From the NCBI RefSeq assembly GCF_003287935.1, contig NZ_CP030287.1:868001-932000 (forward strand): a stretch of DNA of 64,000 nucleotides, read 5' to 3'. The position numbers were made by a program, and so were the translations under genes. The notes beneath the pieces are model-generated. The model did no database searches. It was not told the origin of the DNA and worked only from the letters and a program-made list of their open reading frames with translations. Shown here in pieces: positions 26,459-30,380 of the stretch. This DNA comes from Streptomyces sp. ICC1. GTDB lineage: Bacteria > Actinomycetota > Actinomycetes > Streptomycetales > Streptomycetaceae. Within the stretch, counting starts at the first letter, position 1. Every line of letters begins with the position of its first letter.

Positions 26459-27562
26459 TCAGCTTTCGTCCTCGTCCTTGTCTTCGCCAGCGCCAGTGCC
26501 GTCGCCCTGGTCGGGCGTCGGGAGGAGGGTTCGTCTGATCTCGTCGGCGGCCTCGTACAGCTCGGCCATCTCCAAGCTCATCACGACACGGTTCACGAGC
26601 ACCGTGTACTCGTCCATGTCCGGCTTCACGCCCACCGCCGCCAGCAGCAGAACCAGCCGGTCTGCGGCCCCGACCTCCGCCTCGCGGTCGAGCGGCCCTG
26701 CTCCCGGGCCGGGGTCGTCCCACAGCGGGCGACCGCCGACGGCCGCTTCGCTCCGCGCGCCCACGGGTGGGACGAGCAGGTGACGGAAGAGTTCGGGCAC
26801 CTCCTCGTCGTTGGCGGCCGCGGCGATCTGGGCGAGCGGTCCGATCATGTCGACCGCCTTCTCGATCTCGTTCTCGTGCCGGGCGAGCCACCAGACCACC
26901 GCACTGCCCGCGCTCTGGAGCACGTCGTCACCGAGGTAGCGCCGCTTGTTGCGTTCGTGTTGGCGCTCGTGCTCCCAGATCTCCTCGTCCTTGCGCAGGT
27001 CACTCAGCTTCCGCAGGCGCTCGCGGTCGGCGGGGGCGAGCGTCAGCGTCGCTTCGGCCGCCATGGCCATCACCCGTCCGTTCCGGTCGGGGAGCGGGAC
27101 GCTCAGCTCTCCTTCCAGGAAGAACCGCGCGAAGCTCGCCCGGCCCGGCTGCTCGCGACGGACGATCTCCAGGGCCCGGCTGACGACCGCGGACACGGCG
27201 AGAGCCGGGGAGGCGCCGTCGGACCGGCCGGTGTGGTCGGGGACCGGCCGCCACCACACGGTGGCCGAGAAGAGGAAGTCGTAGCCGTCCACGGCGCTCG
27301 GCAGCGCCGCGTCGATCACCCGCGTCTCCTGGTACGGCTGCTCCGTGGGCGCTAAGGGCGGCGCGGGCTCCCCGGTCCGGGACGGATCGGCGGGCGGGTG
27401 GCCGCCCCCGAGGAACGTCAGCGCGAGCAGCAGCGAGCCCGAGGTCGTGCCCATGGACATGAAGCCCCACAGCCACGCCGACCAATGCAGGAGGTTGCCG
27501 AGCACAGCCGGTGCGAGGCCGCAGAGAGCGACGAGCAGCAGGCTGGGAGAGCGGAGTCTCAT
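26459..27562 (-). CDS. Two-helix membrane protein of the TIR operon
   Basis: This is a 367-residue protein I cannot assign. Two hydrophobic segments near the N-terminus (about 8-27 and 34-54) anchor it. Next come a linker rich in Pro, a beta-rich region (VDGYDFLFSATVWWRPVPD), and a charged coiled-coil stretch (LRKDEEIWEHERQHERNKRR). This is followed by YLGDDVLQSAGSAVVWWLAR and an acidic tail (AGEDKDEDES). The order of a membrane anchor, beta domain and coiled coil is loosely like SPFH/band-7 proteins, which is only an inference. Its ATG overlaps the stop of the upstream gene (ATGA). It is the last gene of the TIR–P-loop–membrane operon. Confidence 0.75.
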   Translation of the reverse strand: MRLRSPSLLLVALCGLAPAVLGNLLHWSAWLWGFMSMGTTSGSLLLALTFLGGGHPPADPSRTGEPAPPLAPTEQPYQETRVIDAALPSAVDGYDFLFSATVWWRPVPDHTGRSDGASPALAVSAVVSRALEIVRREQPGRASFARFFLEGELSVPLPDRNGRVMAMAAEATLTLAPADRERLRKLSDLRKDEEIWEHERQHERNKRRYLGDDVLQSAGSAVVWWLARHENEIEKAVDMIGPLAQIAAAANDEEVPELFRHLLVPPVGARSEAAVGGRPLWDDPGPGAGPLDREAEVGAADRLVLLLAAVGVKPDMDEYTVLVNRVVMSLEMAELYEAADEIRRTLLPTPDQGDGTGAGEDKDEDES

Positions 27563-29592: not shown

Positions 29593-30380
29593 CGTTGGTC
29601 GTCCGAGGGCCGGCGTTCGCGCTCGAAGCGCTGGTGGACCGTACCGCTGTTGTCGCCCGCGGTGAACTGCACCCCGGTGTTGTCGCCCTCGAAGTGGGGG
29701 GCGTTGTACTGGGGCCCCGGACCGGTGTTCACCGGCCCCTGCGGCTCGTTGACGAAGGTGCCGAGGTCGCCGTTGAGGTTTCCGATGCCGCCGCGCACGC
29801 GTTGCTCGACGTCGCGCGCCCGCATCCTGGTGTGCCCCGCGTCCTTGGCCGACCCCTTGCGGGACTTCGTTTCCGCCCTGTCGCGCGCCGCGGGGGCGTC
29901 GCGGTCCGCCTCACCCAGCTTGGGCAGCTGCCGGGCCAGGCGGTCGCCGAGCACCGCCAGGTCCGCGTCGCTGTTGCGGTGGTCGAAGCGCTTGTACTGG
30001 CAGTCCGCCAGCTCACGCAGGTCTTCCGGGAGGCCGGCGCGGTCGATCCGCGTGGTCCTCCCGACGAGCACGGGGATGACCACGACTCCGCGGTCGAGCA
30101 CGGTCCGGATCTCGCGGCGGGTCCAGTCCTGCTCGGCTTCGATGGCGGGGCGGCCGTCGGGCCCCAGGACCTTCGCCCAGCGCGGGCCGATCACCGCGAT
30201 GAGCGCGTCGCACTTCTCCACCGCCCCGTCCAGTTCCGCCGGGAAGCGGTGTCCGAGCTCGATCGAACTGCTGGCGAAGAAGATGTGCTCGCGGCCGAAC
30301 CGCCGGACGAGCTCCCGGGCGATCAGGGTCGCGGCGGATTCCTCGTCGCCTGTGCGGTAGTTGATGAAGACGTCGGACAT
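29589..30380 (-). CDS. TIR-domain protein with C-terminal Gly/Asn-rich motif
   Basis: This 263-residue protein has an N-terminal TIR domain (about 1-150): MSDVFINYRTGDEESAATLI, IFFASSSIELGHRFPAELDG, CDALIAVIGPRWAKVLG, DWTRREIRTVLDRGVVVIPV. Bacterial TIR domains commonly cleave NAD+ or make signalling nucleotides from it; candidate acidic residues are in SIELGHRF and DWTRREI. After a basic linker (about 165-200), the tail carries GPVNTGPGPQY and GDNTGVQFTAGDNSGTVHQ. The first motif is shared with the next gene's protein. I infer an effector joined to its partner by homotypic motif contact. AAGGGA lies upstream of the ATG at 30380. Its stop overlaps the next start by ATGA. Confidence 0.9.
   Translation of the reverse strand: MSDVFINYRTGDEESAATLIARELVRRFGREHIFFASSSIELGHRFPAELDGAVEKCDALIAVIGPRWAKVLGPDGRPAIEAEQDWTRREIRTVLDRGVVVIPVLVGRTTRIDRAGLPEDLRELADCQYKRFDHRNSDADLAVLGDRLARQLPKLGEADRDAPAARDRAETKSRKGSAKDAGHTRMRARDVEQRVRGGIGNLNGDLGTFVNEPQGPVNTGPGPQYNAPHFEGDNTGVQFTAGDNSGTVHQRFERERRPSDDQR
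29706..29735. repeat. 30-bp direct repeat encoding GPVNxGPGPQY, copy 2
   Basis: This is the copy inside the TIR gene, partner of 29521-29550. In the protein it is followed by further Gly/Asn-rich short repeats (GDNTGVQFTAGDNSGTV). Confidence 0.9.

Follow-up and report, generated by a model that had tools for sequence, protein, structure and literature searches.

A three-gene operon of Streptomyces with co-varying tags on a TIR-domain protein and a STAND-like NTPase

Organisation of the operon and its products

The window analysed here is a 64,000-nt stretch of the genome of Streptomyces sp. ICC1 (assembly GCF_003287935.1, contig NZ_CP030287.1, positions 868,001-932,000), and all coordinates are given relative to it. 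Three genes on the minus strand encode, in this order, a TIR-domain protein of 263 aa (29589..30380), a STAND-like NTPase of 677 aa (27559..29592) and a membrane protein of 367 aa (26459..27562). A first-pass annotation of this DNA had described the genes as a single operon joined by ATGA overlaps, and the window sequence bears this out with a 4-base overlap at both junctions. The TIR/NTPase overlap was found in 50 of 53 loci including that of the window (the exceptions being L036, L053 and L056), and in 47 of 49 further loci (exceptions L077 and L108).

The TIR domain, which had already been named in that annotation, was recognised by Pfam TIR_2 above its cut-off (E 4.5e-10), and a profile of 21 TIR relatives matched only SARM1 and its worm relative (best E 4.2e-15). 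Profile alignment placed the SARM1 segment DWVHKE on DWTRRE of the TIR protein, with W86-x3-E90 (30111..30125, minus strand) at the W-x3-E of SARM1-type NADases and E90 on E642, which we take to be the catalytic glutamate of SARM1. The DW...E pattern was present in the TIR proteins of all 98 operons compared, and in 120/120 among the TIR homologues listed. Since W-x3-E is kept throughout and aligns with SARM1, the TIR protein looks catalytically competent and is a predicted NADase effector. A TIR domain devoid of the catalytic glutamate, with that position placed at Pro47, was rejected on the basis of the same alignment.

Residues 210-226 of the TIR protein form the effector-side tag, VNEPQGPVNTGPGPQYN (29703..29753, minus strand), the strict pattern of which was found in 116/120 homologues listed. 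It is followed on the 3' side by a stretch rich in G, D and N, GDNTGVQFTAGDNSGTVHQRF (residues 232-252; 29625..29687, minus strand), within which lie the repeat-like units, GDNTGVQFTAGDNSGTV, that had been remarked upon earlier in the TIR tail. In three relatives (L015-L017) the TIR tail carries several G-D-T-H-G repeats ahead of the tag.

The NTPase, a putative receptor or switch, carries the receptor-side tag, VNDARGPVNNGPGPQY, at residues 9-24 (29521..29568, minus strand), with the strict pattern in 97/120 homologues listed. The P-loop-like site that had been called degenerate was identified as DAQPGTGRRA (residues 79-88; 29329..29358, minus strand), where Arg takes the place of the Walker A Lys. 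That position is Arg in 96/98 operons; of the remaining two, one has Thr and one Ala, so that the GxxxxGK[ST] pattern is missing from all 98. A Walker B-like segment, LFLLDLS (residues 146-152; 29137..29157, minus strand), has Asp as its acidic residue in 96/98 operons and Asn in two. Pfam nSTAND3 was matched at E up to 1 by 27 of 29 members of the NTPase family (best E 6.4e-6), and the NTPase of the window scored E 0.37 (10.9 bits, below the cut-off of 27.2), with no Pfam match above cut-off. A NACHT match was obtained for only one of the 29 members (E 0.09). Because of the Arg at the P-loop Lys position, the protein is named here a STAND-like NTPase with degenerate P-loop rather than an active STAND ATPase, and for the same reason binding of NTP by the NTPase of the window is doubtful.

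The third product had been described as a two-helix membrane protein. Its two N-terminal hydrophobic stretches, residues 8-24 and 29-50, are indeed helices in a predicted model (mean pLDDT 60.8). Behind them, and new relative to the first-pass annotation, is a predicted domain of beta-beta-alpha-alpha-beta-long helix arrangement, in which residues 75-218 (26909..27340, minus strand) are possibly SPFH-like: on structure comparison this model resembles the SPFH-bearing part of the major vault protein, at a Z score near noise. Pfam Band_7 gave no match at E up to 1 in the membrane protein of the window or in 15 relatives, and matched one of 26 wider third-protein relatives (E 0.022). The strict tag pattern was found in 0/120 membrane-protein homologues listed.

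Distribution and gene neighbourhood

Homologue clusters at E up to 1e-3 numbered at least 443 for the TIR protein, at least 256 for the NTPase and at least 506 for the membrane protein. Nearly all the named homologues among the matches listed were from Streptomyces, with Kitasatospora and Actinacidiphila also represented. Co-conservation of the three genes in other genomes, on which the earlier proposal of a common module depended, was observed in 52/52 loci (41 loci and 11 diverged ones with an NTPase identity of 28-39%), where matches to all three lie in the same order; L054 is cut by a contig end and L056 is broken. The reading frames of the L056 operon are disrupted in a long-read assembly, possibly through assembly errors. 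In a further 49 loci the TIR and NTPase genes were present in all and the membrane protein gene in 48, the exception being L114.

By hand count, 290 Streptomyces genomes contained 64 TIR loci of the family in 62 genomes (E up to 3.6e-30), and by hand comparison 63 of the 64 adjoin an NTPase match; eight weaker rows of this search match mainly the TIR domain. The single exception (L229, genome G189) is a TIR stub ending near residue 175, with the tag, the NTPase and the third gene all missing from the 7 kb flank. One of the genomes (G188) holds three TIR loci of the family, one resembling that of the window and two belonging to a diverged cluster. Among the weaker rows, L231 (G087) is a further, much diverged TIR gene with a diverged NTPase and an XRE-type gene for neighbours, and at L230 only an XRE-type gene lies beside the TIR gene. 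Presence in 62/290 genomes is as for an accessory trait, and the operon was rejected as a core trait of Streptomyces. Among 396 genomes of the phylum, two matched at E up to 1e-20, that of the window and one other of its genus; a search of the order added three genomes that belong to another family. Phage records gave no match to the operon, and the only plasmid record to give one was a Streptomyces replicon of 2.8 Mb, matched over 73% of the query at 34.5% identity.

Upstream of the TIR gene lies an XRE-type helix-turn-helix gene (30583..31848, minus strand; HTH_3 E 0.005, below cut-off), which the first-pass annotation had not included. Its start, chosen at MSTTLRFG, is 203 bases from the TIR start on the same strand. 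The gene was found upstream in 39/41 loci, both misses falling at contig ends, and in 65/67 further loci, seven of which repeat counted loci; here the misses were L110 (contig end) and L114, and the match at L098 was weak. It shows 45-95% identity beside nearly all the operons examined, and its conservation often exceeds that of the NTPase. Directly downstream of the operon, between it and ychF, are genes for a ParE-type toxin and a Phd/YefM antitoxin (25693-26254), the only defence genes noticed beside the operon; a ParE/Phd-type pair near ychF also occurs in some relatives. In 23/41 loci the 6 kb flank includes ychF itself. The settled site near ychF, the lack of other defence genes noticed alongside and the near-absence from phages and plasmids make the locus unlike a mobile defence island.

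As an alternative, the operon may have no immune role and may instead be a resident switch for stress or development in Streptomyces, governed by the XRE-type regulator and acting in programmed mycelial lysis, in envelope stress or in the control of NAD. The settled site (23/41 loci) and the linked regulator (39/41 loci) are in keeping with such a role, and SPFH proteins commonly serve membrane stress. However, the operon is present in only 62/290 Streptomyces genomes, its partners have diverged down to about 30% identity, several copies may occur in a genome (three TIR loci in G188), and in the wider family described below the effector is exchanged, as in conflict systems. We regard a resident switch as unlikely.

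Pairing and co-variation of the tags

The motif GPVN(T/N)GPGPQY, reported earlier for the tail of the TIR protein and the N-terminus of the NTPase, was confirmed in both proteins of the window, and the near-identity of the underlying DNA, given previously as 28/30, was found to be 30/33 bases over an 11-codon core. Across relatives the consensus is about GPVHTGxGxQYN, and it varies in step in the TIR protein and the NTPase. Thus, in diverged operons GPVNTGSGTQNN is paired with GPVNSGSGTQNN in the partner (L111) and VGEANAPFHTGSGD with VGEARAPFHTGPGD (L109), GPVHAGQGDL is found on both proteins of L110, and in L106 the tag is shortened on both sides.

Co-variation was measured on 98 operons in 18 clusters at 50% identity, after L053, L054, L056 and L077 had been left out of 102 operons as broken, cut or with miscalled starts. 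Some genomes are probably duplicate assemblies of loci already counted (e.g. L056/G247), and clustering takes such duplicates out. Own TIR/NTPase tag partners scored 55.5, against 41.95±2.13 for shuffled partners (0/20,000 permutations; z 6.35), and the excess was also seen at all other clustering levels, the weakest being that with five clusters (164/20,000). Of 15 control comparisons, 14 gave |z| up to 1.71; the one that exceeded permutation, with the TIR tail compared to residues 1-40 of the membrane protein (z 3.54, 7/20,000), did so at low scores (19.8 vs 17.4). The own partner was the single best in only 4/18 clusters, and five own tag pairs scored as low as unrelated ones (L009, L014, L107 and L113 at 25-29; L108 at 46). 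Own partners beat swapped ones, which would not be expected had the tag copies drifted apart independently from a common origin. The layout proposed in the first-pass annotation, with matching motifs at the effector C-end and the receptor N-end, is upheld, with tags that co-vary between the partners.

The same annotation had suggested a profile search for recurrence of the motif, widespread occurrence being the case against it. A profile of 26 tags searched against 51 genomes returned 19 rows with E no higher than 2.9e-5, and every one fell in a TIR or NTPase gene of these operons, a specificity that is partly by construction as several of the detected operons had supplied rows to the profile. 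The 19 rows came from 10 genomes, nine with both genes and G003 with the TIR gene only. The next row (E 0.001, G014) was a frame overlapping a gene resembling a LuxR-type regulator, followed by rows at 0.034 and weaker. In two of 12 operons (G031 and G007) the profile gave no row at E < 0.8. Tag paralogues elsewhere were rejected, all matches at E < 1e-4 in the 51 genomes being in these TIR and NTPase genes. In the genome of the window, a TIR-tail profile found its own TIR protein (E 6e-43) and, in second place, the N-terminus of its own NTPase (E 0.117); three further matches followed at E 0.65, 1.2 and 1.5, the first of which (L003) reads as a gamma-glutamyltransferase-like gene. Judged from the sequences, the tag common to the TIR protein and the NTPase exceeds chance.

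Mutual conversion between two DNA copies only about 185 bases apart could by itself keep the tags alike, and the 30/33 identical bases in the window could be read in this way. Codon identity at matched residues was slightly higher within than across operons, at 0.591 vs 0.563±0.016 (n=82), 0.548 vs 0.515±0.029 (n=30) and 0.562 vs 0.527±0.046 (n=18). However, this excess amounts to only 0.8 to 1.75 standard deviations, far below the protein-level z of 6.35, and most aligned tag pairs differ at many codons. With codon identity barely raised within operons, selection on the protein is the likelier cause, and we consider gene conversion as the sole source of the likeness very improbable.

Exchanged effectors, known systems and proposed mechanism

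A further result not contained in the first-pass annotation is that the receptor gene, together with the third gene, is also found with other effectors and other matched tags. At 51 loci of the wider NTPase family in Streptomyces the upstream gene is mostly a different one, and its tail often matches the N-region of the NTPase by another tag: FEFRGTNHGVVAQHVQGGI with FDFRGVNRGVAAQHVIGDI (L155), SVSFSHHGEHGIQAYN with SVSFTHSGMHGIQAYN (L133), a HGNINTGTVHGGQSV-like tag on both proteins (L125), and VVQVGGN with VTQVAGD (L115). In 22 representatives, own pairs scored 45.4 vs 31.9±1.55 for shuffled pairs (0/20,000) and the own partner was best in 8. These representatives were drawn from the 51 loci by requiring a called upstream gene of at least 100 aa within 70 bases and by dropping eight-odd miscalled or incomplete loci and relatives above 55% identity. 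The gene 3' of the wider NTPase matched the third-protein profile of the window's family (E<0.01) in 20 of 46 loci with a called gene, more remote loci being without such a match, and profile comparison of the third proteins with 26 chosen wider sequences gave a probability of 98.9 (E 3.6e-17, 223 columns). Taken together, these results indicate that effector and tag are exchangeable while the NTPase and third protein tend to stay. Pfam recognised no family in 34 of the wider upstream genes except a lipoyl-domain protein in one, with two others faint; by eye, we take the upstream genes of L115-L165 to be cyclase-like or small helical Bell-like. GK and GR versions of the P-loop both occur among the wider NTPase relatives. 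In one of them (L117, 340-3177) the P-loop GK looks intact, and the third-gene homologue, of 255 aa, is apparently without membrane helices.

Bacterial NLR/effector pairs of the BASS type were reportedly described by Dyrka et al. in 2020. The available parts of the literature deal with effector/NLR pairs that have amyloid motifs in common and whose effectors include TIR, with EAD pairs, with the nSTAND3 of Avs5 and with vault TIR-like NADases (PMC8086366, PMC12261475, PMC7889193, PMC9815663, PMC7159879, PMC12931631, PMC13174449). BASS are bacterial amyloid signalling sequences in NLR/effector pairs (PMC7889193, PMC8086366, PMC9815663), in which TIR is a less frequent effector partner (PMC7889193). 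As far as the available text of these papers goes, the genes of BASS pairs are, like those here, adjacent or overlapping, with a short G-rich tag at the effector C-end and the NLR N-end, whereas here the P-loop of the receptor is degenerate, its similarity to nSTAND3 is only faint, and two further genes are constant, an XRE-type gene and a third gene for a protein with a predicted membrane anchor. By eye, there is a likeness between the BASS3 peptide as published and the VQVG-type tags of two wider loci (L115 and L116), and the L015-L017 tags contain the GSGxQFN core of the published Nectria peptide of the fungal sigma-motif NLR; the latter system differs in being fungal, with unrelated effector and receptor and no evidence of homology.

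These comparisons bear on whether the tags relay a signal by templating or serve for static docking. In the latter case they could, for instance, be short beta strands that fasten the TIR protein permanently to the NTPase, and switching of the complex would fall to the NTPase or the membrane protein. Co-variation requires contact only, not templating; the tags are rich in glycine and proline, the window's own tag holding three prolines, which would be unfavourable for a cross-beta core; and the fixed gene order and overlap suit co-translational assembly. On the other hand, the C-end/N-end layout and the exchange of effector with tag match amyloid-signalling pairs in the available text of PMC7889193, and the L115 and L116 tags look BASS3-like by eye. 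Static docking is rather unlikely in our estimation, while still carrying appreciable weight.

The remaining systems resemble the operon in part. In the accessible portions of PMC13174449, TEP1 combines a DUF4062 TIR-like NADase with NACHT inside the shell of major vault protein. The types of part predicted here are alike, a TIR-type NADase, a STAND-class NTPase and an SPFH-bearing protein (by a model at near-noise Z), but TEP1 is one polypeptide with another TIR family, and nothing points to the two assemblies being related by descent. Avs5, described in the available text of PMC12931631 as SIR2-nSTAND3-repeat proteins, likewise joins an NAD-acting effector to an nSTAND3-class NTPase (predicted here), but as one fused protein with neither tags nor membrane protein. 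In EAD conflict systems an NTP-dependent core protein carries the same interaction module as an enzyme whose gene lies next to its own; EADs are, however, folded domains, whereas the common element here is a tag of ~20 residues, and in the available text of PMC7159879 SPFH is mentioned once, in the reference list. Thoeris also has a TIR protein within a short operon, but the other two proteins of the present operon are without a Pfam match to SIR2/SLOG or another ADPR-gated partner. PADLOC and NCBIfam likewise showed no such partner in either of the two, which all these libraries cover poorly; the Thoeris model of NCBIfam scored 13.8 bits against a cut-off of 220. The earlier statement that the gene set belongs to no named defence system agrees with PADLOC, which gave no match, and with NCBIfam matches lying far below cut-off only; the set was not described in the literature searched, which spanned few subscription papers.

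We lean, with a little better than even confidence, towards an NLR-like signalosome at the membrane, split over genes, that would work through homotypic motifs and NADase activity and act in defence or regulated cell death. In this mechanism, the 677-residue STAND-like protein would be the receptor or switch and would cluster, and its N-terminal tag would then pair with the like tag at the TIR C-end, homotypically and possibly by beta-type stacking. The pairing would gather TIR domains and turn on NAD hydrolysis. The possibly SPFH-like membrane protein may hold or sense the assembly at the membrane, and the XRE-type regulator gene upstream would accompany the three-protein switch. As read from sequence, the operon is an NLR-like, matched-tag system of known type, here with a predicted NADase and a constant membrane partner.

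A broader proposal, which we advance tentatively and hold to be improbable as a whole, is a modular chassis in filamentous actinobacteria, made up of the degenerate STAND protein and an SPFH-like partner, into which effectors (TIR NADase, small helical Bell-like, cyclase-like) would be plugged via matched tags that can be exchanged, each effector moving with its tag. In its TIR form the chassis would parallel, in bacteria, the set of parts found in the vault (TIR-like NADase, STAND NTPase, SPFH-bearing scaffold), and the membrane scaffold would house or sense NAD products.

If the signalosome reading is true, it would add to such systems a constant third component, a possible SPFH scaffold, that is not described for them in the literature searched. 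The 18 clusters of naturally diverged tag pairs would be material for swaps of pairing specificity. An NAD-depleting, membrane-linked branch with its own tag would join the bacterial amyloid-type NLR signalosomes, and the co-varying tags suggest that plug-in immune signalling of this kind may operate in bacteria.
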